Source: Sphaerolaimus hirsutus (lineage: Eukaryota > Nematoda > Chromadorea > Monhysterida > Sphaerolaimidae). Taken from it: a stretch of 64,000 nucleotides of DNA. Shown in pieces: positions 1 to 52,800 of the stretch; the stretch's first letter is position 1, and each line of letters opens with the position of its first letter. The stretch lies in NCBI GenBank assembly GCA_964036195.1, contig OZ038452.1:4768704-4832703 (forward strand), given 5' to 3'. A program made the position numbers and the translations under genes. The notes beneath the pieces were generated by a model. That model was given only the letters and a program-made list of their open reading frames with translations. It ran no database searches and had not been told where the DNA came from.

Positions 1-3000
1 AAGCGTTCGACATTCTGATGTTCTCGAACGACGAGAAGAACAACTGCTACAAGCTGTGCGCCGGCCTGCTGCACATGGGCGAGATGAAGTTCAAGCAGCG
101 CGGCGAGCAGGCCGAGCCCGACGGCGAGGAGGAGGCGGGCAAGACCGCCACCATGTTCGGCGTCACCGGGCCCGACTTCCTGAAGGCGCTGTGCAAGCCC
201 AGGGTCAAGGTGAGCCAGGGTGATTGGGGTGATTTGGGGTTGGGTTAGATTGGTGTTGATTTTGAATGTGGAGATTTAAACAAAGTAATTTAATGGCAAT
301 TGAAAAGACAAATGGAGAGTGGTAATAAAACGTTAAAAACCTTTTACCTGGCATTGAAATGATTTACTCGCTTCTCACTTGTAAATTTACTTTTCTTTTT
401 ACTTTTTACCTCTCATTTAATGATTGGTTTCTTACTGGTCATTTTGTCTTGTCATTTAACTTGGCTAGGTAGATGAACATATCATTGTGACTTAGGTACC
501 TTACTTTCGTCACAAGGCATTTCGACCCAAGTTTTAACAATGGATTAAGCCAAAAAGCAAGGACATTTGCTTGCACCTCTTTAGGAGCTGAAGAGCAGCT
601 GAGCATCGGCTGAAAGTATATAGAATACAGTAAATACAAAAAAAGATAATGAACCAATTCCATAGAACACCAAAATCACGTGTCCAAATGTCACCTATCA
701 AAACGAGACATGACGAAACGCAACACTATTTGCACTGATCACAGGTGGGCACGGAGTGGGTGAACAAGGGCCAGAACGTGCAGCAAGTGGAATGGGCGGT
801 GGGCGCCATGGCCAAGGGCATCTACAGCCGCGTGTTCAACTGGCTCGTGGACAAATGTAACTTGACACTTGACGCCAAGGAACTGCCCAGGGCATCCTTC
901 ATCGGTGTGCTCGACATTGCCGGCTTCGAGATCTTCGACGTGAGTGAGAAGGCAATGACACTTTGATGTGAATTTGGAACGTTGCCACGATGTTTTTGAA
1001 GCGTTCAATCAAACTTATTTCGTGGCGTTAAGAAAAATAAAAAGAACGAATTATGTACAAAAACGACAAGGAACATCGACGAAGCGATGCATTCAGCGCT
1101 GGCAGACACTACAGTATACGAATCACTTGGCACAGATCCAAGTGGACATAACTATCACAACTCGCACGGCCCTCACACACAATAACCCCCTCAATCGCAG
1201 TTCAACTCGTTCGAGCAGCTGTGGATCAACTTCGTGAATGAAAAGCTGCAGCAGTTTTTCAACCATCACATGTTCGTCCTTGAGCAGGAGGAGTACCAGC
1301 GCGAGGGCATCCAGTGGAAATTCATCGATTTCGGTCTCGATTTGGCCGCTTGTATCGAGCTGATTGAGAAGGTCGGCGGTTGATTTGGGGATTTGGGGAT
1401 CTGTTGATGTTTGACGGCTATGTTTTAAAAAAAATACGGTTTTTCTCGTATTATTCCCATGGGGAACTTTTCGTCAGACTTTTTTGAGGGATCTATTCAA
1501 GAGGGGGAATTTTTAAATTGGGAATTATTATTTCGTCAAAATTTCCAAGAATGTTTCCGCGCTCGTGCCAAATTTATCGTATGACTTAATTCCGATAAAC
1601 TCAAATGCGCTCAGACTAAAATCATGAGTTGTCAAAATTTCGCTTGAAATATAGTGTGTATACAACAGTATGCCCATTTCACTACACTCATTCTCCCACC
1701 CAAACTAACTCCGCCCCCTTCTCCCCGCAGCCCATGGGCATCATCTCCATGTTGGACGAGGAGTGCATCGTGCCCAAGGCCAGCGACCAGTCCTACGCGC
1801 AGAAGCTCATCGACCAGTGGATTGGCAAGCACCCAAATATTGAGAAACCCAAACCGCCAAAGGGAAAGCAGGCCGAGGCGCACTTTGCGCTGAAACATTA
1901 CGCCGGCACAGTGCGTTTTACTTTTGTAGTATTGTTCTTGGATTTTGGCTATTTTTTAAAGAGATTTGAAAAAATTTAACCAGTAAATACAATGATATAA
2001 CTGATACAGGTCAAGTGACTGACATAATATTTACAAGCGCACTTGTCACTGGCGTTGACACTTACACAAATTAACTTGACTCAAAACATGACTTGCCAGT
2101 TGACAAGATGTAGAATCGACCTTCATTGTGCCACCGGTCAACTCAAAACTCGCAGGTGCGCTACAACGTGTCCAACTGGCTGGAGAAGAACAAGGACCCG
2201 CTGAACGACACGGTCGTGTCCGTGCTCAAGCAGAGCCCCGGCAACGAGCTCATCAAGACCGTCTGGGCCGACTTCCAGACCCAGGAGGAGGCGGCCGCGG
2301 CTGCCAAAGGTCTGTTTTTTTTATCAATCGCAGGTTTATGGCATTTCTCAATGGGTGAAAAATTGAACTGTTCTGTTTATTTTCAATATATAGAATTGAT
2401 TATTGAACATTTGAAATTTGGGCCAAACTTGCCATGTGTCAAGTTCGGGACAAAAGCATGAAAATTGAAAGCCTGTGAAAATAAGAAAGATAATTGAACG
2501 CTTTGAAATATGTATAAGTTTGAAATAAACTGCTAACACTTTACCGGTGACTAGAAATAGTCGCTAAACAAGGCACCCAAAAAACTCAAACTCAACACAC
2601 AGTAACTATAACACACAGTGAATTTAACACCCAAAAACACCAAACCCCACCGCAAACAGCTGGCACCGGCGGCGGCAAGAAGAAGGGCAAATCGGCCTCC
2701 ATGATGACCGTGTCGATGGCGTACCGCGAGTCGCTCAACAAGCTCATGTCCATGTTGCACACCACGCACCCCCACTTCGTGCGCTGCCTGATCCCCAACG
2801 AGAAGAAGCAGTCGGGTCTGCTCGACGCCGAGCTCGTCATGCACCAGTTGACTTGCAACGGCGTACTCGAGGGCATTAGGATTTGCCGCATTGGCTTGCC
2901 TAACAGGTCGGTCAACTGGATTCGAGTTCGCGGGTTGAGTTGACAAATGACAATATTTGTCAACGAAGAATGAAGAATGTGTCAACTGTGATATGTCCTC

Positions 3001-3449
3001 GATTAGTTGCCCAGGTGTATATTTCTGTCAGAATTTTCGAGGGGGAACTATTTAAGAAGGAAATTGCTTCTTCGTTACGACGAGGAGAATTATTTTCTCG
3101 AACCCTGTAAATTCGAATGTTAAATGTCATGCAAAACGTCAATAAAAACCGATTTTTATTACCGATCCTTTGACATTTTGCGAGAAATTTGACAGAACCA
3201 CATTATAAATACTTGACAATCCACTTTCCAATGTGCGGGACTGCCACCAGGTGTCCAAATAACCCCCCCCCCCGCAGGACGATGCACGAGGACTTCAAGT
3301 TCCGCTACGCCATCCTGGCCGCGGCCATTGCCAAGGCGGCGCCCGAGGGCACCAAAGAAGTGTCGCAGGCGATGCTCGACAAAATCGTTGCCGATGGTGG
3401 ACTCAAAGAGGAACAGTTCCGCGTGGGACACACCAAAGTGTTCTTCAAG
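1..3449 (+). CDS. Mhc: Myosin motor domain, C-terminal half (7 exons)
   Basis: These seven exons cover the 50-kDa and 20-kDa motor regions. Visible landmarks are the relay-region sequence [13 protein letters not shown] ending at 939, the actin-binding [20 protein letters not shown] (1234-1293), the [10 protein letters not shown] motif after 2180, a short Gly/Lys-rich loop 2 (2660-2700, [10 protein letters not shown]), the [11 protein letters not shown] strand, and [14 protein letters not shown] holding the two reactive cysteines. The SH1 helix end reads RIGLPNR where most muscle myosins have RKGFPNR, an odd pair of substitutions. The converter ends with [10 protein letters not shown] at 3449. 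No sets of similar, mutually exclusive alternative exons, as in fly Mhc, are visible here. Confidence 0.96.
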
Positions 3450-6400
3450 GTGCGACTATATTTTGTGTGGTTTTTGTATTTACATTTGACAGTGGGATAA
3501 TGGCGCCACACACACATGCGCTGAGTGTCAACTGGTTTCCATGTCCATGCAGATTTTAGTTGACGAGTTGACGACGTGGCGCTTCTTGACATCTCTGCAT
3601 GTGCACTTGACGAATTGTCAAGTGCACATGCAGAGATGTCAAAAATAAATTAATATGGGTCTGTGAATTTGAACATGTTTCGGCGACCCGTGAACGAAAA
3701 TCTGAATGGAAACCAGTCGATCCAGTTGACACCCGACGTCATTGCCACTAGTGTTTGTAGGGCCAATGTGAAAAAATTATCGGTTATGACGTTTTTGGAT
3801 TATCAATTTGCATAGACCATGACTCCTAGTTGCAAAATTGCCCTCTACCCACAATTGACGATCATCCAATCAAAACGGCTCACTCAAAAACGCCACCCAA
3901 TAAAAAAACCACACACCAAAATGCCACAAGAAAAAACAACCCAACAAAAAACAGGCTGGTGTGCTGGCCGTCCTGGAAGACCTGCGCGACGAGGCCATGG
4001 CCAACCTGATGAAGAAACTGCAAGCTTGCATCCGTTGGTACACTGCCCAAACGGACGTTGTCCGCCGCCGGGAACAACTGTCGGGTTACCTAATCCTGCA
4101 AAAGAACGTGAAATCGTGGGCCACCCTGCGCACCTGGCCCTGGTTCCAGCTGTACGGCCGCGTCAAGCCCATGCTCAAGGCTGGCAAGGACGCCGAAGAA
4201 AGGGAGAAGCTCGAGAAGGCGCTCAAGGAGGCTGAGGACAAACTCGCTGGAGAGGAGAAGGCCAAGAAGGATTTGGAGGAACAGATTGCCAAAGTTACCG
4301 CGGAGAAGGTGGGTCGGTGTGTTGGTGATAAAGTCTGTGGACAGACCAGTGTGCGAATGGGTCAGACCCGCTGGTCATCTAAACCCGCCACTCATCCATA
4401 CACACCAATCATCCATTTGTATCCACTACTCATCTATACCCGCTACTCATCTATTCCTCTAATTTGGAGGCATAGATGAGTAGCAGGGGTAGGATTAGCA
4501 ACCTGCTGCTCTGCTACGCGCCCTCCCCAATATAGGGCATAGGTGAGTAGCAGGTATAGATGAGTAGCGGGTTTAGATGTCTACCGGCACAGGGTTGATT
4601 GGTTGGTGATATACTCAGCACAGCATGCATTTGAACATACTTTTGGCTTATGTGCCAACGCACCAACGCGATAATCAAGCACACACTGTCACAAAACAAT
4701 ATTTAAAAAAGTGTTGTCGAGTACAAAAACATGTTTCATGCCTTAAATCATTTTTTTCCGAACAAATTTTATAAAATTAGTATTAATGGCGAGGTCATAC
4801 GGAGTATTTCGCCCAGAAACATGCATAGCATGCGGTCCGCGGAGTATGCTACAGAACTTCAGAACGCCTATGCACATACTATGCCTATCAGAACTTATAT
4901 ACTCGTGCAGACTTAAAGCTTAAGACTTAAACCTAAAAATTCTCTTTCTCGCAGGACGCCCTGCAGCACCAGCTGGGCGACGCTGGCGGCGCACGCAAGG
5001 AGGCCGACGACAAAATCAACAAGCTCGCCACCGACAAAAAAGCACTCGAGAAGCAAATCTCCGTGAGTATTGTGGTCCAGATATTTTACGTCTAGGTCTA
5101 TTCATACCGTATTTTCTTGTATACGTTCCACAGATGGGTAGTTATTTCTGGTGGGGGAGTTTTCACGGGAAGCACAAATGTAAGAATTTGCAATCAATAC
5201 AAATAGTGTAACGGTCAAAAAATTGCATTTCTCGGGAACTTTTCAAAGGGGACTATTCAAGGGGGGGGGTAATAAATCCACTCAATATATACGCCAGTCA
5301 TCAAAATTGAGGATGGGGGCATTCAAAAATACACTTCACAGTGTCATTTTCACGTTAACACAACACAGTTGCCGCAAACAACCCCCCCCCCCCCCAATCC
5401 ATTTCTCAGGAGCTCAACGAGCGCATCAACGACCAAGAGAACAAGACCGGCGACGTGTCCAAGGCCAAGAAGAAGATCGAGGCCGAGTGCGACGGCCTTA
5501 AGAAGAGCATCCAGGACATGGAAATGAGCCTGAGAAAGGCGGAGTCTGAGAAACAGGCGAAGGACCACCAGATTCGCTCGATCCAGGATGAGATGCAGCA
5601 GCAGGACGAGAACATCGCCAAGCTGAACAAGGAGAAGAAGCACCAGGAGGAGGTGAACAGGAAGCTCACTGAGGACCTGCAGGCGGAGGAGGATAAGGTG
5701 CGGTTTGGACTAGATTTTTGTGGGGAGGTTTTAATGAACAGTGCAGGGAAAGTAGTAAAATTAGGTGATATTGTACTACAGCATGCTGTTTGATTACCAT
5801 TGAAAAACTTGGTACTTTGAAAAAAGAAGATAGGTAAATATAATAAAACCACTCTAGAAATTACTGGAAAAAACAAGCAAAATTTTTTAATACAATTTTT
5901 ACACTTTTAATATTTCCAAACCCAAACCACCCATCAAAACACACCTCAAACTACACCCCCCACCCCCAGGTGAACCACCTGAACAAGGTCAAAGCCAAGC
6001 TGGAGCAGTCTCTGGACGAGCTGGAGGACAGCCTGGAGCGTGAGAAGCGCCAGCGCCAGGACCAGGACAAGGCCAAGCGCAAGGTCGAGGGCGAGCTCAA
6101 GGTCGCCCAGGAGAACATCGACGAGGCCACCAGGCAGAAGACCGACGTGGAGAGCAGCTTGAAGAAGAAGGAGGCGGTAGGTTGAGAGGGAGGTTTTGGG
6201 TGCGGAGGTTGAGGGTGGGGAGGTTGAGGGTCTGCCAAACAGAAGAGACAAAGGCGCCGCACACACTTTGTGTCAACCGGGTTCCATGTCAATTCGGATT
6301 TTAGTTAACGGGTCGCAGGATATTTTTCAAGTGCTCGATAGAAATGCTGATTTCACAGACAATTAATTCCCAAAACGATTATTCTACAGTGACTTTACAC

Positions 6401-9400
6401 CATGCACAGTTTGTTCACGCTGAAAGCGTGCCAAAGACATAAAACGCAATAAAACATAAAACATGATAAAAATGTAATTTTAATAAATACACGACAACAT
6501 TCATTTATGTTATAATGATTTATTCACAAAAAAAACTTTTTTATATATTCACAAAGATATATCATTGGCAAGCTTCCAACGTGAGACTAAAATAACTGCC
6601 TGTGCAGAGTGCCATGTCTCTAGAGTATAAATACCTCAAATATTCTCACCACCAATTCAAATACTCAACCCCCCCCAGGAACTGCTAGCTTTGTCTACGC
6701 GTCTGGAGGACGAGCAGTCGCTGGTGGGCAAGCTGCAGCGGCAGATCAAGGAGCTCCAGGGCCGCGTCGGCGAGCTCGAGGAGGAGCTGGAGGCCGAGCG
6801 CTCCGCGCGCTCCAAGGTGCGGTTTAGGGGGGTTATGAATGAGTGGGGTTATTGTGGATGGATGCAGTATGTTGCAAGTTGCAGAGTTGGTTGTGTTTAA
6901 TTGCCTACCTAAAGTGGACGTCAAATTAAGGACCGCCGGAATGAAAATCGCAAAAGATTTCGAATTAAATGAATATAAATACAATGATCTGATCTAATGT
7001 TGTGCCAGATTCCTGAGGCTAATCCAAAATGTAAAATATCATGCAAAATGTCAACAGTCCACCATGTAAAATGGCAAGTTCGTTTGTCATTTTCCATCAC
7101 TTTAGACACTTTGCATGACGTTCGACATGTTCCAGCAAGGGCATTTTACATGCTCAAAAGTGCCCCCTATCACACCCCTCACACATCCACGCACATCATT
7201 CCCCCCACAGGCGGACCGCGCCCGCTCCGAGCTGCAGCGCGAGTTGGAAGAGCTCCAGGAGCGGCTCGACGAGGCCGGCGGCGCCACCGCAGCTCAAATC
7301 GAGATGAACAAGAAACGCGAGGCCGAGTTGGCCAAGCTGCGTCGTGATTTGGAGGAGGCGAACATGAACCACGAGAACCAGCTGGGCGCGCTGCGCAAGA
7401 AGCACAACGATGCTGTGGCTGAGATGGGCGACCAGCTTGATCAGTTGAACAAGGCCAAGGCTAAGTGAGTGGCTGAGTTGTATTTATATGTTCCGATTAT
7501 CTTCTTAAAATATCACTTCTAATAGTTATATGTAGGTATGATGAATCAATATTAATACTGGCACATCCTTAAAACTTCACCACCACTTTAGATGCCACCC
7601 CAGAACATTTAAAATGTCGTGAATGTTTCAAAAAAATGTGAAAGATCAAATATTCTTTTTATTGGTCATTTGACGTTTTTCATGACATTTTACATGAGAT
7701 TTGATACTTTGCATGAAATGTGACATTTTACATGGCCTGGGTGTGGCCCAACGATCACGAGAAATTATGCACATTCCCTATAGCACATGCACAGAACAAC
7801 ATATCCCACGCACTAAACAAACACGCAGGGTCGAAAAAGACAAGAGCGGCATGCAGCGCGAGATCGAGGAGCTGAACCAGGCCGTCGACGCCGAGTCCAA
7901 GGCCAAGGGCAACTACGAGAAGACGGCCAAGCAGCTCGAGATACAGGTTGGCTAACGACGGCAAATTGAAAATCCAGAAAAAATTTTTTCAATTAGCGAA
8001 ATAAATTCGAAAACTCATTTTGAAAACACCTTTGACACACTTTTGAAATTTGAAATTTGAATTTTTTTGCCACCCTTCCCCCCCCCCCAGGTTGCCGAGC
8101 TGCAGTCGAAAACGGACGAGCAGTCGCGCCAACTGCAGGACTTCATGTCGCTCAAGGGCCGCCTCAACAACGAGAACTCCGATCTGAACAGGCAAATCGA
8201 GGATTTGGAAGCCCAACTGCAACAAGTGCACCGGCTCAAGTCGCAGCTGAACAGCCAGCTGGAAGAGACCAAGAGAACTGCCGACGACGAGGCCAGGGAA
8301 AGGCAGTCGCTCGCCGCGCAGACCAAGAATTTGCAGGTGGGTTTTTGACGCGGGTTTTTAAAATGTGTTTTTTTTCAGTGGGATTTAAAAATTGGGTTTT
8401 TAATAGTGAGACTCGCACACTGGAATTTTGAAGACATTTTGGCAGTCTATTTTGACGTGGTGCGATTGTTTTGACTACGCGATATAAATAGGTATCGTCC
8501 CTCCGAACCGCAGTATGGAGTCACTCATGATCAATCTGGACGACCTCTCACAAACATATTTTTGCATTAAAAAGAGTTTGACGAACCCTGCACGACACCC
8601 CGCAAACATCTCAATTTTCACAATTTTCAAACGCAGCACGAGCTGGACAACATGCGCGACCAGGCCGACACCGAGGCGGAGGGCAAGAACGAGGTCATGC
8701 GCCAGTTGAGCAAGGCCAACGCCGAGATCCAGCAGTGGCGCGCCCGCTTCGAGACCGAAGGTCTGTCGCCAATGTCGCTAGTGTAGAAGTGAAAAACTTT
8801 TGACGTGAAAGGAGTAAAAACGTAAAATAGAATAAACTTATGAATTCATTTATCACTTTTCTTGCCACCTGCCTTCAGGGGGCAGTCCCGAGTTCCTGTA
8901 AAGTGTAAAGCAATGCGTCAAATATCATGTGAAGTGTCAATCACAACAAAAGGCGAAAAGATTTTATTCCTGAACTTTGCATGACAATTGACACTTTACA
9001 TGACAATTGACAAATGTGTATAACATATTACATCACATTTGACACTTGACAAATTACTGGGCTTGGAACTGGCACCCGAAACCCTTAAAGTTGCCCAAAC
9101 ACTAAAACATCCCTAAAACGGAACAATTCCACAAACCCCAACAAAAAAACCCAAAAATCCCCCCCCCCCCCCAGGCATGCTCAAAGCCGACGAGTTGGAC
9201 GAAGCCCGTCGCAAGGTGCAGGGCCGCCTGAACGAGTGCCAGGAGCAGCTCGACGCGGCCAACAGCAAGATGCAGTCCATGGAGAAGACCCGCGGCAGGC
9301 TGGTCGCCGAGGCCGACGATGCCCGCGCCGAGGCCGAACGCGCACAGACCTTCGCCGGTGGGTTCGGGGTTGGATTTGAGAGTGCAAGAGTGGAAATAAG

Positions 9401-12400
9401 GCACCTGGGGTGGTCGAAGATCGGAGCCTGTGGAGTGTCCTGGGAAATGGCAAATGTCCTGCAAAGTGCCTATGTAAAGTCATGACCTGCAAAATGGCAA
9501 ACTGTTTGCCATTTTACAGGGAAATTTGCAAGACTTTAGACACTTTTGATATTTGACATTTTACAGGATTGGCACCAGCTCGCCTGTAAATATAATTCCC
9601 CCCTCAAAAACGTCTGATGGTAAAAATTCCCCGGTGGAATTATTCAAGCAAGTACGGTAGGTTCACATCACATTGGGGCAATTTCTGTTTGCACAACATG
9701 CACTTTTTTCCACCAAAAGATGCTCTCAAAATAACTGGGTAAAAGAAATCAAGACCTCAATTACTTCAGCAAACCTCAAAAGTGACAAAAATAACCAATT
9801 ATAAAAACAAACACAAAAAACTACCCCCAACCCCCGCAGCCTCCCTGGAAAAGAAGCAGAAATCATTCGACAAGATCGTGGAGGAATGGAAGCGCAAGTG
9901 CGACGACCTGAGCGCCGAACTTGACGCTGCGCAGAGGGACAACAGGAACATGAGCACCGAGTGCTTCAAGCTGAAGAACCACAACGATGAGTTGGCGGAA
10001 ATGGTCGGTTTTGGCAACTGGAAATGTTTGAGTTGACGGTTTTTTAGTAGCCCTCACTTGAATAATACTTTGAGTGTGAAAGAAACAAAGATGAAATTAG
10101 GGTTGGGTAGATGAGTTTTCGATATTCTTTTCCTGTAACTCGACATTTTATATCATTATAAATAGGACCCGCGACATCGATATGCAGTATAAAAATTGTC
10201 GACATTTGATATGAAAAATAGCGGATATTCGATAATTTTTCCAATTTTTCGTTATCGACATTTGATATAAAAAATAAAAATGACAAAAAAAAACAGACCG
10301 AGGCGCTGCGTCGCGAGAACAAAAATCTGGCGCAAGAGATCAAAGATCTGACCGACCAGCTGGGCGAGGGCGGCCGTTCGGTGCACGAAATGCAGAAAAT
10401 GGTCCGCAGGCTGGAGATTGAGAAAGAGGAACTGCAGGTGAGTGGCGAACTTGGTTGACACACACTATAAATATTTAATTTGGAAAACCCAATGAAATTT
10501 GGGAAACTCATATGTTTGAACAGCTTACCAGAACTAATTATCTTTGAACTCCATCAACAGTAGTTGACAGACTCCCCATTCTGGAAAACGTGTTCAAAGA
10601 AGATTTATAAGTTTCCGAAATTTCGATGGTGTACAAGTGTGTGCAGCGCCATTCAACCTCCGCCCATTCCCACGCATAAAACCACATCAAAAAGTGACAC
10701 ATCAACACATTGGCGCTACACACACTGTGTGTCAACTGGTTGCCAGGTCAATTAATATTTAGTTAACGGGTTGCCGGACAACTTTCAATTGCGCATGCGG
10801 ATGTGTCGATAGGAATTTATTTTATTTACATGCATTTGAACAACCCATCAACTAAAATCCAAATAAAACCAGTCGGCCCAGTTGACAGCCAATTCCACCG
10901 TCAACTAGTACACTTACATCCGTCAACTCCCCCTCAATCAACCCCCCGCAGCAAGCGCTGGACGAGGCGGAAGCGGCTCTGGAGGCTGAAGAGTCCAAGG
11001 TGATGCGCGCCCAAGTCGAAGTGGGCCAGATCAGGCAGGAGATCGAGAAGCGCATCGCCGAGAAGGACGAGGAGTTCGAGAACACCAGGAAGAACCACCA
11101 GAGAGCCATCGACTCCATGCAGGTGGGATGTTATGGTGGAGTTGCGATGGCTGTTGGCGCGGTGCCAAGATGAATTGACTAGTATTTAGATGGGGTTTGG
11201 ATTGGATAGCGATTGACATGGATGATTTTCAGAAAATATGATAATAAATATTCTCAGAAAATTTTTTTCGAAAAACTATAATGTATCTGAAAAAACCCAT
11301 GGGGAAAACGTAAAAAAAATTTTTCTTCCACTTTTCTTATGTTTAACAAATATAAATCTCCCGCGGTTTTCGGAATGCTAAAAAATACCAATCCTGGGTC
11401 TGGAAAATTGTCGGGAACTGAAATCATGTTTTGAACTTCCGGTTGCGGAATTGACTAGATACCTGAACCCCCACCAAAACCCCCTCAACCCCCTCAACAA
11501 CCCCCAACGACCACATCAGGCTTCTCTGGAGGCGGAGTCTCGCGGCAGGGCGGAGCTGCAGCGCGTCAAGAAGAAGCTCGAGGCGGACATCAACGAGCTG
11601 GAGATCGCGCTCGACCACGCCAACAAGGCCAACTCCGATGCACAGAAGAACCTGCGCAAGTGAGTGGAGGATAAAATGGGATCACGACAAAAGCGGCCTT
11701 GTGAAGACTTCACAAGTTCCCACGCAGTTCACGACACTCTTGGTGAAGTGACCTAACACCTATTATCGCGATAAAAAATATTCCTGAAGTGTGCTTCACG
11801 AACTAGTATGGCATACTTTGCGTGGTTTGTGAAGGCTCTGTTAAATGTCTTCACGCCGCCATTGCGCGTCTGTGTGAAGGCAGTTCACGACGCATCACGG
11901 TCCATTACACACCCATTTTTTCTGTGAATCCCAACCTAAACACCTATATACTGTATACCATTCGAGATAATGCAAGCCGAATCACCACCAAAACACGTTT
12001 ATCCACAACTCATCCACTCACCAAATAAAACCCCCCAAAAATGTCCACCCCAACCCCCAACCCCCCAGGTGCCAGGACCAAATCAAGGAATTGCAAATGG
12101 CCCTGGAAGAGGAACAACGTCACGTGGCGGACGCGCGCGAGTCGCTGATCGGCGCCGAGCGCAGGGCCACCTCGCTGCAGCAAGAGAAGGACGACTTGAG
12201 CCAGCAGTGCGACAATGTCAGTGTTTTGCTGCTTGAGACACTAGTTAACTGCCAGTCAACTGGAAATTTGGTGAACTCGTAAATCAACTTTGAATGGCGT
12301 TTTGAGTTTACTGGAATTTGCCGTTCGTCAACTGCAGTTGACGGAGAGTAAGAATAACGCATTCCAGTGAACTCAATTGTATTCAGATGTTCTCAATAGT

Positions 12401-15400
12401 GTATCGATTATGAGTTCACTGAATTTTCAAAAATTCACTCATAGGCGGCCCACAATCTAGTTAACACACGTGTCGAGTGGTTTGTGTCAACTCAGATTTC
12501 GGCTTCACGTGTCGCAGACCGATCTCCAAATGCACTTGTCATAATATTTATAATTCAACATTGCAGCAACTGCATTTAAGATCGATCCGCGAGGCGACAC
12601 GTGAAGCCGAAATCTGAGTTGACACAGACCAGTTGACACACGTGTGTCAACTAGTTTGTGGGCCGCCATAAACTAATGTGCGCAGCGACAACAAATAACC
12701 CCCCCCCCCCCAACCCAGGCGGAGCGCGCTCGCAAGCAAGCCGAACTAGAAGCGCACGACGCTCGCGACCAAGCGAACGAACTGTCGGCCACGGCCAGCG
12801 CTGCAACTGCCGCCCGCCGCAAGCTGGAGGCTGAGCTGCAGGCGCTGCACTCGGAGCTGGACGACACGTTGAACGAGCTCAAGGCCGCCGACGAGAACAG
12901 CAAGAAGGCCATGGCCGACGCCGCTAGGCTGGCTGAGGAGCTCAGGCAGGAACAGGTAGGTGGAGGGACTGGTGGTAGGCAAGAGCCCTGTAAAATGGCA
13001 AATGTCGTGCGAAACGCCCTGGAAAATTGGCAATTTGGCAAACTGGCAAAATTGCATGATATTTTTTCTTCATTTTACAGGGTCTGGGAGTGGCCCTGTA
13101 CACGCTAGTTTGTGCCGACGCACAAATTTAAAAGTTGAATAATGAGTTTTCGAAATTTCTGGAATTTCAATAGAACACTACCTACTCTTTGTTAATGGGA
13201 CATAAATGGAAAAACAAATAAGGAAATGGAGCATCGAGAATATCAGCAGACATTATCTTTGAAAATACCTGCATTAATATTTACGTTGATTGACCCCGGA
13301 TCAATTGCTCGAAGCTCAAAACGTGTAAATAGAAAGCTCCAGCTTTAGAGGTATTTTTTGCACAACGTGAAAAATAATGTGAAGTGGAAAATGGACACAA
13401 AAAACACCTGCAGCAGTAAATATTAAAAAGTAAACAGACATTGTCGATAAATATATTGAAGAGTGCCGCTCTGTTCCAGGGTCATCATCACTGGAACTTT
13501 CCTATCGAAAAGTTCCAATTTTAAAACCGAAATATGCCTTAAAATGTACAGAAACTATCGATATCCATCCCGCATTCGTTCGCGATCAGATATAAAATTT
13601 TCTGGAAGTTACGATGTAAAAATGAGGATTTGGGAAGTGGTAAGAATAGGAGAACATTTTACTTGTTTTTAATCACTGAATCAAGGAAAAATTTGCATCC
13701 ATCACACACCTGCATAATTTCAATTGCCAAAAGTGTCAAAAGCCATGTTACATGTCATGAAAAATATCAAACCTCCAGTTAAAAAATGAACAAAAAACTT
13801 TTTTAAAAATTTTACATGGCATTTTACATGACTTTCAACATTTGCATTGCATTTTACAAGGTCCCCATAATACCACTTTAGCACATGCTGTATTTTTACT
13901 TCAAAACTGTGAAAAATCAAAACTCCATCAAAATCAACCAAAAAATTTAAAAAAACCCATCAAACATACTACCCCTCACACAAACCACCACACCCACCAA
14001 TCAGCACCCCTCAACTCCGCCCACCCAAGCAACCCCCCTACCCCCTACCCCCCCCCCCCCACAGGAGCACTCGATGCACGTGGAGCGCATGCGCAAGGGG
14101 CTCGAGCAGCAGGTCAAGGACATGCAAGCCCGCCTGGACGAGGCCGAAGCGGCCGCCCTCAAGGGAGGCAAGAAGGTCATCGCCAAGCTGGAGCAGCGCA
14201 TCAGGGAGATCGAGAACGAGCTGGATGGAGAGCAGAGGAGACACTCGGAGACTCATAAGAATATGGCCAAGGCCGATAGGAGGAATAGGGAGCTCCAGTT
14301 CCAGGTGGGGGGGTTGAGGGGGGTTTTTGTTGTGGGGTTGAAAGAGTGTGCTGTTTTCCATTCGAAAACTTTTTTTTGATCAGCATTCCCAAAAGGGGAT
14401 TTTTAGAAAATATAATAAAATATCTCTGAAAAAAATAAATACTATTCAAATATTGTTTTATAAAAAAAATCTACACTACCATACTCGATACATAATTATC
14501 AATTATTCAAAATCAAATCCTTTGAATGCAGATCGAGGAGGACAAAAAGAACCAGGACCGCCTGCAGGACCTTGTTGACAAGCTGCAGAACAAGATCAAG
14601 GTGTCCAAGCGCCAGGTCGAGGAGGCGGTCAGTTTCCTTTGCCACTTGTTGCTGCCGAAACTTTGGCGCCAGGAAATTTTCCCAGATTTTGAACGCAAAT
14701 GCCTCGATTTAATTCTGCTCAAGCTGGTTTTTAGCTTTCGTCTGTTGACTGCACACTTTACCAGAAAATTTACCATATCACATCTGAATAAAGGAACACA
14801 AATTTGATAGTACTCATCAAAATATGGTAACATTCTCTGTAAAGCGTGTGACGAGTACACGAATGAAAATATGAAATTTTGTTTCCTTTGCACCGGGCAG
14901 AAATACAAAAATACCACAACAAATACGCAACACTCCCAGCATCCATTTTCCACCAGAAAACACCCCTTAACCCCCCCTGGCGCCAAAATTACCTCAAAAT
15001 AGCGCCAAGGTCAAAATCACACAACCCCCCAAACCCCCCCCTGCAGGAGGAACTAGCCACGGTGAACCTGCAAAAGTATCGCCAGCTGCAGCACCAAGTC
15101 GAGGACGCGGAAGAACGCGCCGACGTGGCCGAAAATTCGCTGACGAAACTGCGCGCCCGCGGCCGCAGCTCCGGCCCTACCGCTTCGGTTTGTTAGGGGG
15201 TGTTATACTAGCCGGGTTGTGTTGAGCTTCGGTCCGGTTTGAGGTGTCCAAAGGTTTCAAAGGGGGAAAAGGCCTATGTAAGACACCAAACCGACTGATA
15301 ACAATTCAAGATTGCCAGCGACGTAGCGAGCCGTGTAAAATGTCCTATAAAATGTACAAAGTGATGCAAAATGACATGTAAAATGCAAAACGTCCTGCAA

Positions 15401-16420: not shown

Positions 16421-18557
16421 TCACGCGGCGCCAACGGCCAACATCCTGGCGGCGGTGGCGTGCAGCCGCGAGTCGAGCGAAAAGATTTTGTGCGAGCCCT
16501 GGAGGCAGTCTCGCACCCTGTAAAATGGCAAATGTGATGCAAAGTGTCAAAAGTGTTTGTCATTTTGCAGGGCACTTTCCGTGACTTGAGACACTTTGCA
16601 TGACATTTGCCATTTAACAGGGTGCGGGACTGGCACCTGCACGGGCAGCGGCATGCTCAGCTCGCAGGCGTTGTCGAACACGAGCACGTAGGCGCCAGAG
16701 TCAACCTCGCCCGACGGGTGCTGCGATTTATGATTCATTTGTTTGTGTTGGAACGGAGCCAAGGGATTGGTTGTTGACTCAGGTCGACTTCAGTCAACTG
16801 ATAGCGCGATAATACAATTTGTTTTGCGATTATACAATACAACCCCCTACCCCTTGAGGGCTGTTCGTTTTTCGTATTCATAAATCACTTTTAAAAATTG
16901 CGAAGTATGTATTCATAGCACAAGGTATATACTCGGCGTACATGATACTCTGCCGTGGCACTGATTTATGTCTCGTGTTGGAAGCGTGCCAATGATTGTT
17001 TAGTCATGCGATTTCCGTAAAAAGATGAAAAAATTCATCGATGTGAATATGTTAATCAATAACATTATAACAACGATCAATTTTGTCATCTTTTTATGAA
17101 ACTCGCACGCGCTAACCATCGTTGGCACACTTCCAGCGGGAACCACGCGTGCAGGGTGTAAAGTAACCGGAGTATACCAAAGTATGACATTTTCAACGAC
17201 AAACACTTAGTACCTGCCAGAGTTGGTCAAATACTGGTATTTTTGGAAAACGTAAATGTAAACGTAAATACCTTTTCCAAAATGAGTGTATAAATACTAA
17301 AACGTAAGGTATTTTTCAAATACCTGGGAAAACGTAAAATAAAACGTAAACGTAATAAAATTACTACCGTATTTCATCTAATAGAAGGGCATCCTTCTTT
17401 TTTCACCAACTTTCTATTATGGACACGCCGTCTATTGGAAGCTGCCCTTCTATTTTTTCGCCAGTTTTTCAAACAATTTGTCACATTCTTTCAACGTTTC
17501 CCCAAGTGTTATGTCACAAAAAATTTATATTATGGCGATTCATAGAGTTCTTTCAACATTTGATTTTCAAATAGCACAAAATTAATCCACGAAAGCCACT
17601 AAATAACAGCATCCGCTGACTTTTTTAAACACATTTGGCACAATTCGAGTTTGGGAAGTAAATTACAAATTTACTGCATAAAATTACATAATACTCTGCA
17701 CTGCAGGTAGGGTCGAACCATAGAATAATTTGAATATTGAATATACCTATTCTGAAAATACGGCTTCTGTGGAGGAAAATTTGGCAGCTGGCGCGCAAAA
17801 TTTTTAAAGTTGTCGGAAATGTATGGCGGAAGTTGCATTTTGTCGAAAATTTTTGGGTCTCACAACGTTTTTTACGTTTTCTCTGGTACCCGGGTATTTC
17901 GGTCAGGAAAACGTAACAAAACGTAACGGTATTTTTTGAAAACGTAAACGTAAACGTAAGTATAAATACCCGAATAACCGGGTATTTCGGGTAAACGTAA
18001 ATACGTTTTTGCAACTCTGGTACCTGCACATCATACTCCTCCTGGGTGAGACAGTCGACTACGTCGACGCAGCCCAACAGCACGCCAGACTGGTACTGGT
18101 CGGGGAACGGCCGGGGCAACTTGCCTGACAAATTTGTGTGACAGTTAGAGATGACAATTCTCTGTGACGGTTGACATTGACAGATGACGATATTTATGAA
18201 AAATCTGTGTATCGGTTGACATTGACAGATATTTAAGTCTTGCTAGCAATTTCCTCTTTTAACGTAGACCAACTGAATTTTCTTCAAACTGTTTTGATAT
18301 ACCATAAATCGGGTGGGCGCGCCAGCGCCATCCCTCGCTGCCGAGGGAGGGCGCAAGCGACCCACCCATAATATGGTCAGACACACTAAAATGCGGAAAT
18401 CGCAAAATTTAAATCGCAATAACTTCGGAACGCGACAAGCTACGGCAAAACCGATTATACCATTGAATAGCCCGTGTCGAAAAGTACCCCCGTGCTAATT
18501 TTCAGATCAAATGGTTGAGTTGGGAGGAAGTTATTACACATTTTCTTTTCTAGGCAG

Positions 18558-18588
<31 letters not shown>

Positions 18589-21500
18589 CTTCATCTTGTT
18601 CTCCCGACAATCTTCAAACTACAATAACTTCCTTGAAACACGACCGATTTTCATGGTTGATGGCTCATATGAAAGAGCATACGATGCCATTTCTTATTTT
18701 CGGGAATTTTTTTCACAGGCTCCGCCCACTTTGGGACGGTATCTGTTTGAAATTTTCAAACCTCAATAAATTTAAAATTTGAATACAAATGCGGCAATAA
18801 AAAAAATTTGTTGATGTGCGCCATGACTAGAGCTTTCAAATGAGCCAATTTTTGGCAATTTTGGTACAGATTTACAAAAGTTATTCAAGTTTGCTTATTT
18901 TGTGTAAAATGCGCAAACATGCCTGAACTACTGCTTGATGTGATACTGAGCATGTGACCTTGCATGGTGATTACTATCAGGTCATAAATGTCTAGTGGTT
19001 AATGTCAAGTCAAATGTCAAGTTATAAATGTCAAGTCAAATGTCAAGTGATAAATGTCAAGCAATAAATGTCAGGCCAAATGTCAAGTGATAAATGTCAA
19101 GTGATAGATGTCAAGTGATAAAATATCAAGTGATAAAATATCAAGTCAAATATCAAGTGATAAATGTAAAGTGGTAGATTTCAAGTGAAATGTCAAGTGA
19201 TAAATGTCAAGCAATAAATGTCAGGCCAAATGTCAAGTGATAGATGTCAAGTGATAAAATATTAAGTGATAAAATATCAAGTTAAATATCAAGTGATAAA
19301 ATATCAAGTCAAATATCAAGTGATAAAATATCAAGTCAAATATCAAGTGATAAATGTCAAGTGGTAGATTTCAAGTGAAATGTCAAGTGATAAATGTCAA
19401 GTGATAGATAACAAGTGATAAATGTCCAGTGATATGTCAAGTCAAATGTCAAGTGACAAATTTCAAGTCAAATGTCAAGTAACAAATTTCAAGTGAAATG
19501 TCAAGTTTTATGTCAACTCATAAATGTCAAGTCAAATATCAAGTCATATGTCAAGTCAAATTTCAAGTGATAAATGTCAAGTCAAATTTCAAGTGAGAAA
19601 TGTCAAGTCAAATGTAAAGTTTAATGTCAAGTGATCAAATATCAAGTCAAATGTCAAGTTATAAATGTCAAGTCTAAAGTCAAGTCAAGTCAAATGCCAA
19701 GTGATAAATTTCAAGTGAAATGTCAAGTAATAAATTTCAAATGAAATGTCAAGTCAAATGTCAAGTTAAATGTCAAGCTTAATGTCAAGTGATAAATGTC
19801 ATGTCAAATGTCAAGTTTAATGTCAAGTGATAAATTTCAAATGAAATGTCAAGTTTAATGTCAAGTGATAAATGTCATGTCAAATGTCAAGTCAAATGTC
19901 AAGTTTTTTATGTCAACTGATAAATGTCATTTCAAATGTCAAGTGACAAATTTCAAGTCAAGTCAAATAACAAGTCATATGTCAAGTCAAATTTCAAGTG
20001 GTAAATGTCAAGTTAAATGTCAAGTGATCAAATATCAAGTCAAATGTCAAGTTATCAATGTCAAGTCTAAAGTCAAGTCAAATGGCAAGTAAAAAGAGAA
20101 GTGAGAAGTGAATTGCAAAGAAAATCGGCAAAAGTCAAATGAGAAGTGAAATGGCAAGTAAAAAATTAAATTGAAAAACTTTGATAAATGGATACTGATC
20201 CATATTTCTAGTTAATTTTTTTTGTGAACAATCACATCATGCTATTGTCACAAATATGAGTTGTACATAGAAGCATGATACACTCCTTAACTCTTAATGG
20301 CAGACCAATTTCATTTAACAGACATTTCTCAATGATTTTTGGATATGTCATTTAACACATAGCATATGCAAATATTGTTGGCACACGTTGGCACCATGCC
20401 AGCCGATATTTTCATGGAGTGGCGCCATCTACTCCAAAATGGTGTCATTTTCATGGAGTGGCACCATCTACTCCAAAACTTGAATAACTCCTCCTGTCAG
20501 CTAAGTGAAAAGGGTAATTCATCCCATGAAGTATCCCATTGTGGTAAGCGCACTGGGAATGATTCTGCACATATTTAAAAACACAGTCACTGGAGCCAGA
20601 CAAATAATAAACTGTCTGTGTTCCATGCAATGTTATGTGAATGCAATGCACCCTGCACAATGATACATGCATACTGCAAAATGATACAATGACAGATTCA
20701 TAAATATGTATGTAAGTATTTATACTATGTATGTATGTATAATATTTTATAAGATGTATTTACTATGAAAAAATTCCCCACTTGAGCTGTGCAAGAATTT
20801 ACAGTGTATATATTGTTGAGCAAGAAACCTCCTGGGTGTCATTTAGGGGAGCCTAGGCCACTGGCCACACAAAAGAAGTATATCGGTAAAAAAATGGCTA
20901 AAGCCAAAAAAAGTAGACGCTGCTCCCACATCAACATTCTCTCAAATGGACATGAAGTGTGCCTCTTAAGTGGACATGAACATATATTGGATGCACAAAA
21001 GAAATGTATCATTGCTTAGAAAATGGCATACACTTCACCGATAACACACTTTAGTGTGTTCCGGCAGCTGCACTGCCAGTCTGGAAACCACTCGGAGGCT
21101 GATGCCAAGAATTCCGAATCAAGAATTAACAGTGACTCAGGAACAGTGGCTCAGGGAGGAAGGGTGGTCCCGGGGATCAAACCCAGGACCTCTCGCGCGG
21201 TAAGCGTGATCACTTCCACCTGAGCCTGTACAAACCCATGTAAAAAAGTTTCACACCATTCAACAATCTGAGACTCAAAATGGAGAACAATTCACTCAAG
21301 TTTATCCCAGCTGCGTGAGCTTTTTGGTTTCAAACACACACATAGCACAGCTCACGCAGCTGGGATAAACTTGAGTGAATTGTTTTCCTTTTTGAGTCTC
21401 AGATAATTGAATGGTGTGAAACTATTTTACATGGGTTTGTACATCTAACACTTTAATGTACCCTCAAAACTCTATTGGATAAAGTAAAGTTTGGGCTCTA

Positions 21501-24238
21501 TGTGAGATTTCTTGAGATGTGAGATTTCTTTGGGCTCATTTCTCACAATGCAGATGAAATGATATATTGCTTTTGTGCATTTAACAGTCAATACATGTAG
21601 TTGTTGTGATGTAATAAAAATAGTTTCTTTATTGAGGTGGGATATGGAACACACGGCGGTAGTACTATGGGACTGAACAAAATTTCGGGGGGTTGGCGGG
21701 GATTTTTTTTTGTTTTCACACGGGTACTGACACTTGTACACGTGGTGTATGCATTTATCATTCACATATCAACGACGCCATAAGTCGCTGAGGCAACATG
21801 ACGTCGTCGATTTTAATTCATTACTGTATGATAATTGATGACTTACACACACTAGGGGTCGTTTGGGAGGGTTTGGGGGGGTTGTTCCGGCATATACGCA
21901 CGCCAGGGGTCGCTGACATGCGTACATGTGGTAATCTGCAGAAAGAATAGGTATATGGAAAGAAAATAGGGGGAAATCCCCATACGCGACGCACGTGAAT
22001 GCGCGGCAGTCACGTAAATAAGACTGCCCGCGCATGGTTTCACTATTAAAGCTCAGTTAACAGCGAGTCTGTTAACTGAGCGGTGGCTCAGGTGGAAGTG
22101 ATCGCGCTTACCGCGCGAGAGGTCCTGGGTTCGATCCCCGGGACCACTCTTCCTCCCTGAGCCACTGTTCCTGAGTCACTGTTAATTCTTGATTCGGAAT
22201 TCTTGGCATCAGCCTCCGAGTGGTTTCCAGACTGGCAGTGCAGCTGCCGGAACGAACTTATCGGTGAAGTGTATGCCATTTTCTAAGCAATGATACATTT
22301 CTTTTGTGCATCCAATATATTTTCATGTCCACTTAAGAGGCACACTTCATGTCCATTTGAGAGAATGTTGATGTAGGAGCAGCGTCTACTTTTTTTTGGC
22401 TTTAGCCATTTTTTTACTGATACTCTATTAGTACGACCCCCTTGGGCACGTTGTGTAAGTACAATGCGACCCCCTCCAATAAAGCGACCCCAAAAATGTG
22501 CTGAAAACAATAAAGCGACAGTCGCCTTAATAGAGTATTTACGGTAGAATTTCCGTAATATAAAAAAATATGGGGCACTCGCCCACTCAACCCCCACTTG
22601 GAGCTGTTCAGAAAGACGAAATATGAAAGATCAAATCTAACCTAATCACTCTCAATCCAGTGCATTAAAATTCATTTAAATTTATGAATGTGGGGACTTC
22701 CGTTCCAAAAGTTCACAAGCGCCAAATCCAGAAAAATCGAGTTAGCTGTGGATTCGACATCCACGTATAATTCTGCCCATTTTGGTAAAAAAATCAGTGT
22801 TATAGTCCATTTCGTTCCCGAGATACAGTGGTACCGTTTTTCAGAAAAATCACAATTTTCATATCGAAAGTGCACATATCCATCTCAGATCCCCTATGAA
22901 AAACAGGACTTTCATTTCGTAAGTGCACATATCCATGTCGGACCACCGGAGTTTCATTTCATAAGTGCACATATCCAAAAAATAGTTTCATTTCCAAAAG
23001 TGCACGCGTGCTCCGGATCGCTCGCGAAGAGCCGGCCGGATTTCCCATACAAAATAAAGCTTCATTTCCAAATGTGCATAAGTGAATTTCCAAATTTATT
23101 TTGCTCTATAAATCGAGTACGGGTTTAAATATAGATTTGAAGATTTAGGTTTGTGTACTTCTCGAAAAGGGCTTCTCAGTGGTGTAATTGGTTTTGCCCT
23201 GCGATGCACCGTTAGGAAGTTATTTACATTTCAAGTTCAAATTTACTCATTTTTTGGGTGGTTTACAAAATATGACATAACTCCCAAAATATTTACCAGC
23301 CGACAAAATTTAGGGACACAAAAAATTGTAGACAAATGTCCGAGATATCTGAAAAGTGCGGGGCAAGCTTTGTCGCCCAAACATGGCGCTGCCGGGCCAG
23401 CGCCAAACTTTTAAATGCGATTTTGAAAAATCTGGATATGTTAACTTTTGGAGTGAAAGTCCCCATGTGTCATTGAAAATTCAACGTGGCAGCAGTCTCA
23501 ATTTTGACCAAAAACGAAAAACCCAAAAAGGACCAAAGCAACCTTCATATCTGTTCTCATAGAAGTGTTCAATTTGGAGGGCGAAATCCGACTCGCAGTA
23601 TTTGCCCGTGCTGGCGATCCACAGGCGGCCGCGCAGACGCGTGTGCCAGCTGCGAGCTTCCGCGCTGCGGTGCAAATTGTACAGGTAAATGCGCACAGTT
23701 ACACGTGCGATGAGATGTGGACATGTTGATGGCAAAGCGCCAGAAAAATCTTGCCACGCAAAAAATGCGCAACGTGAAAAGGGTGCCATTGGACTGAAAA
23801 ATTTAACGAAATGAAAAAAAATGTAAATATTGGTATACTCAGATGACATTACGCCGTACATCTTTCCGGAGGAAACACTCCATCATGACGTGATCACTTT
23901 CGTCGCTGTCATCATCTCTCGCCATCACGTCGTCTTCATGACGTCGTCGCTTCGTCGTCAGCACGTCTTCCATAAGTTCTCGGCTGGCCGTCTGCCAGCC
24001 GAAGACATAAATCCTATCGGTTTGTAGAGTATCGTGTCTCCCCAGTATACCACCAGAACACATGCTTAACAGATAATGATTTTGAAATAATATTAATGCA
24101 CGATAAACCTTAGTAATATAAATACGACGTAATGGACAGACGTCTTTATGCCGCGCACGATCATGGAGGCGAAGGGCTGGTGCACGCTGAGGCAGGCGCC
24201 CGTGTCGTACTGGCACATGGTGGCCGCTTCGCACCGCT
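16421..24238 (-). CDS. TRIP4: TRIP4 ASCH-domain exons
   Basis: Five exons (24142-24238, 23543-23664, 18024-18124, 16637-16720, 16421-16498) encode the ASCH fold, a predicted nucleic-acid-binding beta-barrel. Key motifs are CLSVHQPFASMIVRGIKT, EARSWHTRLRGRLWIASTGK, YQSGVLLGCVDVVDCLTQEE and KIFSLDSRLHA before the TGA. They align to the human CLSVHQPWASLLVRGIKR, GRLWIAATAKK, GCLLGCVDLIDCLS and KIWKLDSKIH. The intron 18,125-23,542 is 5.4 kb and full of repeats. The intron 16,499-16,636 is a single fold-back element. Confidence 0.95.
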
Positions 24239-39063: not shown

Positions 39064-39453
39064 ATTTTGAATTAACGGATTTTTGGCTGCTTATTGTTTG
39101 CCATCCGCGGGTGGGACCAGCCCGGACCCATGCCACGACTCAGGAATTTGTTCACTGGGGCTGCCAGTATGGTCAAAGTAGCGAAAAACCAAGTACGTTT
39201 GTAAATATAAGGGCGGAGTCTATCAGGCCAAAATTTCCGTCAAAATGGGAAATACCAAGCATGACAAATTGGCAGCTCGCCAAAAATTATTTCGCAATCG
39301 CTATAAAAAAAGCCAAAATTGGTATGTAACCATGTAAAGACGACTTATATCCACAATTTTCAATTTTTCGAAATCGCATTTTAAAGTTTGTCAATGGCCC
39401 GACGGCGCTATGTTTGGGCGACAAAGTTTGCCTTGCACTCTTCAGACAGATCT

Positions 39454-39662
39454 GGGGTCAGTTCCGCAAGTGGAAAAGTTAAGAGTTAAAACTTAAAAGT
39501 TGAGTAAAATGACAAATGACAAGTTATGAGTAAATTTAAGAGTTAAGAGTTGAGTAAAACGACAAATGATTTTACTCAAACTTTTAACTTAACTCTTGAC
39601 TTATCATTTTACTCAACTCTTAACCCTTTACTCTTAACTTTTCCACTTGCGGAACTGGCCCC
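39454..39662. mobile_element. Complete fold-back element, GTTCCGCAAGTGG family
   Basis: Ends GGGGTCAGTTCCGCAAGTGG and CCACTTGCGGAACTGGCCCC. The interior consists of AAGAGTTAA/TTAACTCTT-type units, left arm inverted relative to right. It interrupts a dispersed repeat whose uninterrupted homologue is at about 23,310-23,450, so the insertion is directly visible by comparison. Confidence 0.88.
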
Positions 39663-46342: not shown

Positions 46343-46559
46343 TAGGGTTGGGACGATATGACTTTTTGATATCGACATTCGATCTTTTTTCGACACGCGA
46401 TATTCGATATTGATATCGACCCCCCATATGGGTATTCAATAGAGGCCATATACGATATTTGATATCGAACAACTGTCGATTTTTTTTGGAATCTTCGATA
46501 TCGATATCCGATAAAAACATAGTCTAGTCAATCCAACTTAATCCACCGTCCCAACCCCA
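46343..46559. mobile_element. hAT-like element with TATCGA repeats in the RhoGAP 3' end
   Basis: Starts TAGGGTTGGGACGATAT and ends GTCCCAACCCCA. Flanks GTGCGGGG (46,335-46,342) and GTGCGAGG (46,560-46,567) agree at 7/8. Interior is (GATATCGA)-type repeat, shared with the copy at 62,820-63,538. Its right end is 14 bases from the RhoGAP stop codon. Confidence 0.85.
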
Positions 46560-46573
46560 GTGCGAGGGTGCCC

Positions 46574-49500: not shown

Positions 49501-49891
49501 CTAATGAATCCCGCACTTCCCCCTTTTTTCAAAACGTTTTCGATTTTTCCATTTTTTCCGCCTGGTGCCAGTCCCGCAAATTGAGAAGTGAGAAGTAAAC
49601 TGGCTAATGCGAAGTGAATTGAGAAGAAAATTGGCAAAATCGAAGTAAAAAAATAAAAATTAAATTAAATTTCCCATCGCTTTCGCTAATTTCCTTCTCA
49701 ATTCACTCCGCATTTGCCATTTTACTTCTCACTTCTCAATTTGCGGAACCGGCACCCAATCCCCTCCCAAAAGCCGAACCTAGTCTCGTCCATGGACCAT
49801 CTGCCGGTGGTGGGCGCCCTGCCCGTCTGCTTCATGCCGTGCTCCTTGAGCGCCGACTGCCCCGCGTCCGCCGTCGACGACGACGCCAACT
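46574..49891 (-). CDS. RhoGAP protein C-terminal tail exons
   Basis: Five exons encode a mostly disordered tail with islands that look conserved: RWSMDETRPRGAYERRISQQ (junction of two exons), LPCVGQPNRPDTPDSADELL, LSYLEWVHRRQQRRMVSRSE and SLYDMGGKLSDGG. Poly-Ala, poly-Gly and Pro-rich runs follow, and the end is NTRVAHYRF. The phase match from 60,161 (phase 1) to 49,891 (AG TTG) is the main reason for joining these exons to the GAP domain across a 10.3-kb intron; a separate gene is possible but would need its own start. Confidence 0.82.
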
Positions 49892-52800
49892 CTGAGAGCG
49901 GCACTTTTTTCGTGTATTTTTGATTTTTTTTGTGATTTGTTTTGGTGCATTTGTTTTATTTTAGGTAATTTCTAAGTGCTGTAAGTGTTCAGTTTGTCCC
50001 CCAACGTTCAGTTTGTCCCCCAATCCCAACACGATTCCATTATAGTCAGCAATTAAACATTAAGCGATTATCTTCCCGACGATAATTGCATGGTTGAAAT
50101 CGAAAGAAATTCCGAAAGCTGTAATTGCATCCTAAAAACGTTTTTTTTCATCCTCACACTTCGAATGAAATTATTGTATTTCTACTTAAAACTTTTCTCT
50201 TTTACTTCACATATTTATTTGTGAAGTTGTAAGCAAGCCCCCATCCCTCGAAACTTTCAAGATCACAGAACGCAGTTCCATCACAATCTTGTACTTGTAC
50301 AGAATACAAACACGCCTAGCAAATGCGCCCGCAATCAATTCAACTCTGTTATTAGCGCGCGCTCAGTGAATATTAAAATTCATAGGCTTGATTAGGGGTG
50401 GAAAAATTGCTTTTTCAAATGCTTGAATAAAAAAATTTAAAAATCTATCTTTACTGGGGGCATAATTTTTGCCTACCCCCGATCGACAACCCCCCCCCCC
50501 CAAATAAAATCGTCCAGCTATCTATCCATATGGAACAAATTTTGAGCGATCCCCCTCATTTCAAATTAAAATCGCTAATTTTTTGCTCCATTTGTACATT
50601 ATTATTTACAACCACCATCGCTATTTTGGGCCATATAGATATTTTCAACCTTTCATTTTAAACCTATTTTAGCGCCTTTTTCCCCATTGCCATCTTTACC
50701 CTGGAAAAACATACATATTGAGAACCCTCGAAAAAATCTATTCAGCTCCAGCGGACAGTCCCAAGCTCTTTAAAGTGTAAGGTCAAGTGCCAAATGTCAT
50801 GACAAAAAACACTTAAAAAAGATTTTACCATTGGAATTTCGACACTTGACTAGGGTTGGCCGATGTTTTTTTTTAAACGTTTTTTTAATAAAAAAACGTT
50901 TTTTAAATAAAAAAAACGTTTTTTTTAAAAAAAACATCATGACTTCCGAAATGTTTAAAAAAAAAAAAACATCAGCCAAAATTTTTAGTACTAAGCACTA
51001 GGTATTTTGCAAAATTTTTGCGCGCAAGCGCGCAATTTCACACACAAATTGACATTGGTGGTTGTTTTCATTGGTTTTGTTGCATTTTTAGTATCAAAAC
51101 ATCCATTTTTATGTGCTACCATGGGTGAATAAGCCGACATATGTTGCTGTAATATATAATATTGAGGTAATGTGCTTCCATGTACCTCCACAGTGTGTAA
51201 CTTCACTCCCAAAGTAACAACCTCCTTTTGTAATCTTTTTTTATCACCATTCCGTGCCAAACTTTACCTGAAGTCACGAACATTCGACTATAAGGCAATA
51301 TACGAACAATATGTCGACAAAAAATGGATATTTTTGACACAAATCACCACTTATAATGCTATCCCATGGCTCCACAGCCATTATATGGTCATATATAACA
51401 TCACAGAGTATTGCCAGTGTCTGATATACCTATATATGCTGACACTAGGTCATATCTGGGAGCTTTTAAAAAAAACGTTGTTTTTTTTTAAAAAACATAG
51501 AGTTAAAAAAACCGTTTTTTTTCCAACCCTACACTTGACAAATGATAAATTTGTATGAAAACTAGCACTTGACGTTACACTTTACAGGGCTCGGTACTGG
51601 CACCGGAGCTATTTGTTATCTATCCACCCACCATGAGTTTCAAAATCCCGGAGACCCCCGTCATATCTACGCCCGATGGAAAAGTTCATATCAGTTATGC
51701 ACTCTGCACGAAAGTGAAAATCGATACGAAGTAATGGACGCGCGCGTCCCGGCAATTGAACGGCGCATGAAAATTAAGTAAGAAATTAGTCCCCGCAGAT
51801 ATTTACCGAGGACCGTCCAGCCCGTATATTGAGGCAATTTCTTAGCGCAATAAGCGAGAGTGTATTAAGTCAATGAAAGCCGGGACACTACACCTGTCAG
51901 TGAAAATACTACCAGGTGCCAGGCACGGACCGTGTAAAATGTCATGCAAAGTGTCAAATTTATGGAAAATGTCCTGGGATTTATGAAATGTCATGAAAAG
52001 TGTCAAATAGTTATGACAAAATGCACTCGAAAATGTCAACTGACATGCATGCAAAGTGTCAGAAGTCATGTAAAATGCCCTGGAAAATGGCAAACGGCGT
52101 TTGACATTTTCCAGGACATTTTACATGAATTTTGACACATTGCATAACATTTGCCATTTTCCATGGTGGTTGACATTTTCCAGTAATTTCACATGACTTT
52201 TGACAGTTTACTTGACTTCTGACATTTTACAGGGTCTGGGGTGCCCCCAGGTGCGATAATTAAATGCAGTGGTTTGGTAGATTTGGACCCCCGCGGGGGT
52301 TCATACAGATAGCAAATCGCTCCTCCGGAGGGATAGATCGCTGAAAAATTTTCTGGGGGGTTTGGGGGGGGGGATTCGCGGGGGTTCAATATCTGGGGTT
52401 TTCCTGAGGTATAGAAGGAAGAAAAGGGTGAAAAATCGCTAGAAGTAGGTGAAAAATAGCTAAAGATAAGTATATAAGCACATATATAGCCAAAATAGGC
52501 GATAATGAATATGAACTAGCGATTTTGGAGGTGAAAAACTAAAAAAAGGTACGAAAATTAGCGAATTTGAGCGAAATTTTTTTTTTAAATCGCTCCAGAT
52601 ATGTAGATAGATAGCTGGACGATTTGGGGGGTGGGGGTTTGGGGGATAGAAGCCAAAAATTTTGCCTCCGGGATAGATAGATAGCTGAGCGGGCCTCCGG
52701 GATAGATAGATAGCTGGCGGATTGGGGGGGTAACCCCCCCCCCAACCAACCCCCCCCTACTAAACCCCTGGTTAAATGCCCCCCATCGCATGAACACCTT

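Follow-up and report, generated by a model that had tools for sequence, protein, structure and literature searches.

A TRIP4 intron in a nematode, probably made by insertion of a CAG-duplicating hairpin transposon

We find that the predicted last intron of TRIP4 in the window (that is, in the whole 64-kb stretch of DNA that was analysed) consists of one hairpin element and one copy of a flanking CAG, and of nothing else. That this intron arose from the insertion of a transposable element is well supported. We consider it probable that the element was a non-autonomous, CAG-duplicating hairpin transposon that entered a coding exon, offered its own GT terminus as the splice donor and was moved by a transposase of the NuwaI group.

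Structure of the TRIP4 intron

The 3' end of TRIP4 (ASC-1) lies on the minus strand at 16720-16421, where HPSGEVDSGAYVLVFDNACELSMPLPVQ is followed by a 138-nt interruption and by GSHKIFSLDSRLHATAARMLAVGAA up to the stop codon. When the two parts are joined, the peptide can be aligned to the ASCH domain of human ASC-1 (PDB 8yew, E 3e-15), and the junction PVQ|GSHKIF is aligned on PIKGNPKIW of the human protein, with no gap there; the reading frame is thus unchanged if the interruption is removed. If retained, it would amount to 46 codons, including an in-frame TGA. It starts with GT and ends with AG. Judging from the protein alignment, we take it to be a spliced intron (16499..16636, minus strand; CAG|GTGCCAGT...GACTGCCTCCAG|GGC), which lies between the remainder of the upstream exon (16640..16720, minus strand; HPSGEVDSGAYVLVFDNACELSMPLPV, ASCH domain) and the coding part of the last exon (16421..16498, minus strand). 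The latter is open and conserved in the alignment to human ASC-1. The coordinates, the length and the termini that the initial annotation gave for this intron are all correct.

Nearly all of the intron is a MITE-like hairpin element of 135 nt (16502..16636) with the inverted termini GTGCCAGTCCCGCACCCTG and GAGGCAGTCTCGCACCCTG. On both sides of the element there is a CAG. The left copy is the last codon of the upstream exon (16637..16639, minus strand) and the right copy is the source of the acceptor AG (16499..16501, minus strand). Note that the boundaries of the intron coincide with those of the element and the duplicate: 135 nt of element and 3 nt of CAG make up the 138 nt, and the leftover intron sequence is 0 nt. 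The inverted termini had been proposed to form the ends of the intron, one of them as the donor; this holds with one refinement, namely that the duplicate, in its second copy, provides the CAG of the acceptor.

The fold-back structure, too, is as had been claimed. Folded as single-stranded DNA, the intron reaches -45.3 kcal/mol, whereas its shuffled versions average -16.2 (z -10.6) and 0 of 200 of them fold as well. Its arms (16501-16554 and 16584-16637) are 87% complementary; set against each other, the two arms differ at 7 of 53 positions, and the end-against-end inverted-repeat score is 51, while the null maximum is 16. Read from the outside inwards, the right terminus is GAGGC, which differs at two of five bases from the common GTGCC. 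We rejected an alternative delimitation, in which the element would end at AGTC and GCC would be the duplicate: 10 additional bases would then remain in the exon and disrupt the frame, and further copies of the family reach GTGCC.

The splice sites of the intron are weak. With a matrix built on 25 introns of the muscle myosin heavy chain (Mhc) gene, the donor scores 2.9 and the acceptor -0.7, each lower than in 24 of these 25 introns; donor position +5 is a C, where 24 of the 25 have a G. A terminus that begins with GGG could not serve as a donor, since it lacks the GT, and substituting it lowers the donor score from 2.9 to -2.8. With the two substitutions in the right terminus the acceptor scores -0.7, as compared with -4.9 without them, which is no more than suggestive.

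The preceding TRIP4 intron shows a peculiarity of its own. Its predicted donor, CAG|GTACCAGAG on the minus strand, falls within a directly repeated 6-mer, TACCTG, with copies at 17211-17216 and 18021-18026 and a third at 17321. The pair at 17211 and 18021 flanks about 800 bp with the short inverted ends CCAGAGTTG and CAACTCTGG; perhaps this segment (17211-18026) is a second insertion, one that duplicated a splice donor.

Control introns in the myosin heavy chain gene

The Mhc gene spans positions 1-15200 of the plus strand, and its 25 mapped introns (210..15046 from first to last, plus strand) served as the control set. Many of their acceptor tracts are strikingly C-rich. The introns were mapped under guidance of the protein; intron 11 is uncertain, and introns 8, 9, 13, 17, 24 and 25 were placed without the expected junction string. 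All intron counts given here refer to the focal intron and these 25, with the other, roughly located introns of TRIP4 left out. As for the gene itself, the best PDB matches of the rod are chains 3jbh, 7kog and 8u95, which we take to be tarantula, Lethocerus and Drosophila myosins, while the motor is best matched by 6qdj 'Myosin-4', presumably from a nematode (752 bits over 451 residues, versus 647 for 3jbh).

Copies of the hairpin family occur in 6 of the 25 mapped Mhc introns (BLAST matches with E<=0.002; nine BLAST rows, covering the introns with such matches, were used to place the copies), in agreement with the initial annotation, which had the family in other introns. A further family match at 12069 was rejected, its position being the start of an Mhc exon. 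All six introns keep their own splice sites beside the copy, the nearest of which lies 16 nt from a donor (intron 23). None of the 25 Mhc introns is built as one element from end to end, and none looks like a decayed introner, the end-to-end inverted-repeat score exceeding its own null maximum in 0 of 25. The proposal that the element is an introner has to be split accordingly. For the focal intron, the only one in the set whose full span corresponds to one copy, creation by this copy is the simplest reading. Calling the whole family introners needs several such one-copy introns, and with one among those mapped in the window the family-wide claim falls short of being shown.

Termini and target site of the hairpin family

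The family is repetitive within the 64-kb window. We curated 28 termini by hand, collected with terminus scans, inner-sequence scans and a profile search; since the profile drifted onto an internal repeat, the termini were hand-picked and rows beginning inside an element were excluded. They belong to two related families that share the outer stretch GKGCCAGTYCCGCA, followed by CACCCTGTAAAATG in one and by GCAAGTGG in the other. Of the 28 termini, 12 start with GTG, eight with GGG and eight with some other trimer.

Directly outside the terminus we find CAG or CTG (CWG) in 16 of 28 cases, the two focal termini counted. Without two one-base shifts made by eye the number is 14 of 28, and it becomes 12 of 26 if the focal pair is left out as well. 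Given a background frequency of CWG of 0.027 per position, we regard it as firm that the family inserts beside CWG. Its duplication is supported by fewer copies. Among the ten copies with two edges, four have identical flanking trimers, all of them CWG, against a chance expectation of 0.019, and six do not; if the shifts by eye are disallowed, two copies (the focal one and the one at 39455) have identical flanks and eight do not. The shifts concern the edges 52247, 13095 and 7748, each moved by one base, upon which the first two are CWG; the remaining edges of the ten copies were likewise placed by eye.

For example, a copy at 51916..52247 is flanked by CAG on both sides, and a copy inside Mhc intron 23 (12972..13095) by CTG on both sides, in each case with the right edge shifted by one base. 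A copy of the second family (39455..39661), with the same outer terminus GGGYCAGTTCCGCA, lies between two CTG without any shift, and another of that family (49565..49755; terminus GTGCCAGTCCCGCA) has the flanks CTG and CCA. The copies at 51916-52247, 49565-49755 and 9430-9575 would likewise read GT...AG on one strand; the last of these sits within Mhc intron 17. Besides, a tandem array at 18986-20078 has a 26-nt unit, AAATGTCAAGTGATAAATGTCAAGTC, similar to the inner repeats of the hairpin family.

None of the family copies is long enough to hold coding sequence, and no transposase family (DDE transposase and Myb/SANT included) was matched by the 146 open reading frames scanned of the 167 listed for the window. 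Exact-pattern scans of viral and prokaryote contigs gave no relative. A set of 20 matches in viral contigs is, by a rough reckoning, about as many as expected by chance. A protein scan of viral contigs gave no relative of TRIP4.

Origin of the intron

How could a hairpin transposon become an intron without changing the protein? The element would enter the coding exon of TRIP4 at a CAG on the sense strand and duplicate it, so that this strand would read CAG|GTGCC...CAC CAG|. Since the terminus starts with GT, the upstream CAG together with the element's GTGCC would be usable as a donor, and the downstream CAG would provide the acceptor; splicing would then take out the element and one CAG and bring back the original frame. 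Because the termini are inverted, either orientation of the element would do, while the target would have to be CAG on the sense strand, CTG being unsuitable. Judging from its GKG terminus and from CAG/CTG as the target, the element would have been moved by a transposase from the NuwaI group, which belongs to PHIS and is PIF/Harbinger-related. Creation by insertion is the simplest reading because no intron sequence is left over, CAG is found on both sides and the protein is ungapped at the junction.

Alternatively, an older intron may have been present, into which the element jumped and of which the remainder was later deleted. The family does colonise existing introns, as the six Mhc introns demonstrate. 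These retain their own splice sites beside the copies, whereas in TRIP4 nothing is left over, and the older intron would have had to be deleted with base-exact precision on both sides, sparing the CAG flanks and the GT terminus; we regard this history as quite improbable. Somewhat less improbable, but still unlikely, is that the insertion is exonic and spliced partly or not at all, being a damaging or segregating allele or one that the assembly took from one haplotype. The weak splice sites are in keeping with this, and an unspliced insertion would give an identical duplicate and identical termini. Indeed, GT and CAG are no proof of splicing, because any insertion of a GTG-ended copy at a sense CAG brings them along. 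On the other hand, the last exon of TRIP4 is open and conserved, and the mismatches between the arms suggest an insertion of some age; a copy derived from an already diverged source would, however, look alike.

Finally, the ends of the hairpin might fall on the splice sites by chance, or the gene model might be wrong, the splicing being read from the protein alignment alone. Given the ungapped junction, an inverted-repeat score more than three times the null maximum and the CAG on both sides, we find this hardly credible. It is likely that we see one intron made by a hairpin transposon that targets CWG.

The link between the choice of a CWG target and the making of introns is the interesting and testable part. 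Elements of the NuwaI type that duplicate CWG could be ready-made intron makers: a single-base change from GGG to GTG in the terminus would turn any insertion at a sense CAG into CAG^GTG...CAC CAG^, preserving the frame in either orientation. That this is so, and that the present family has done it repeatedly here, is a tentative idea which we would not expect to hold at present. Introners are a leading explanation of bursts of intron gain, and a target preference that covers the exon end CAG would give a simple explanation of frame-neutral insertions; the idea also predicts something that is open to testing wherever a genome contains NuwaI-like elements.

Other features of the window

On the minus strand at 36250-39090 there is an open frame of 947 amino acids. 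Its residues 82-168 are a GIY-YIG domain, and a YVDD motif follows at a large distance downstream. A domain search of this frame gave no match to a reverse transcriptase family; the order of an endonuclease before a reverse transcriptase recalls what we take to be the arrangement of Naiad-type Penelope-like elements. Two large palindromes were seen, one at 20888-22414 (arms 94-97% complementary), with a predicted tRNA-Gly (22078-22150) mostly inside one of its arms, and one at 58382-59338 (arms of 261 and 140 nt, 90-92%). Two further stretches, 30257-31308 and 51166-51555, are connected with a 386-nt tandem repeat of 2.8 copies, and the translated text of 30.3-30.7 kb is found again near 51.2 kb. 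On the minus strand at 46530-48600, GC-rich stretches have the look of exons and may belong to a third gene, one putative intron of which contains a family copy (47717-47852); the frames tried there had no match in Pfam.

Comparison with introners and NuwaI elements

In the literature outside subscription papers and supplements we found nothing that ties NuwaI or other CWG-duplicating elements to introners or intron gain. The word Harbinger is absent from the main text of PMC9860276, the excerpts of PMC10597677 and PMC12124190 hold nothing further on such a link, and a full-text search for intron gain together with MITE and Harbinger was matched, among the texts it returned, only by work on sugarcane. 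Recently gained introns in Daphnia, as the parts seen of PMC4202315 present them, are likewise a case of intron gain in an invertebrate.

According to the excerpts seen of Han et al. 2015 (PMC4482050), NuwaI elements (PHIS, PIF/Harbinger-related) have CWG duplicates, termini that are usually GGG, and exclusively animal hosts, one crustacean included. The CWG target and the animal host are shared by the present family, many of whose termini begin with GGG or GTG, and the termini of our element lie within the range of 12-61 bp that these excerpts give for the inverted termini of NuwaI. Unlike NuwaI, the present copies are small and non-coding, and their commonest start is GTG rather than GGG.

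Introners were reported in 175 of 3,325 genomes, with copepods among the hosts; within animals and land plants they were confined to two groups, both animals (PMC9860276, Gozashti et al. 2022, here as elsewhere from the text excerpts). These are sets of similar introns, whereas here we have one intron, whose splicing and gain we infer, and the duplicates illustrated there are 4 or 8 bp long (3-9 bp for earlier families), as compared with a CWG of 3 nt. In other respects the agreement is close. As described in the same excerpts, introners are insertions resembling non-autonomous DNA transposons that turned into introns, with inverted termini and a target duplicate, and the length of the mRNA is unchanged after insertion and splicing; some of them carry their own 5' splice site and borrow the 3' one from the duplicate, as the legend of Fig. 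2C (Chrysochromulina) has it, which is the arrangement that we propose for TRIP4.
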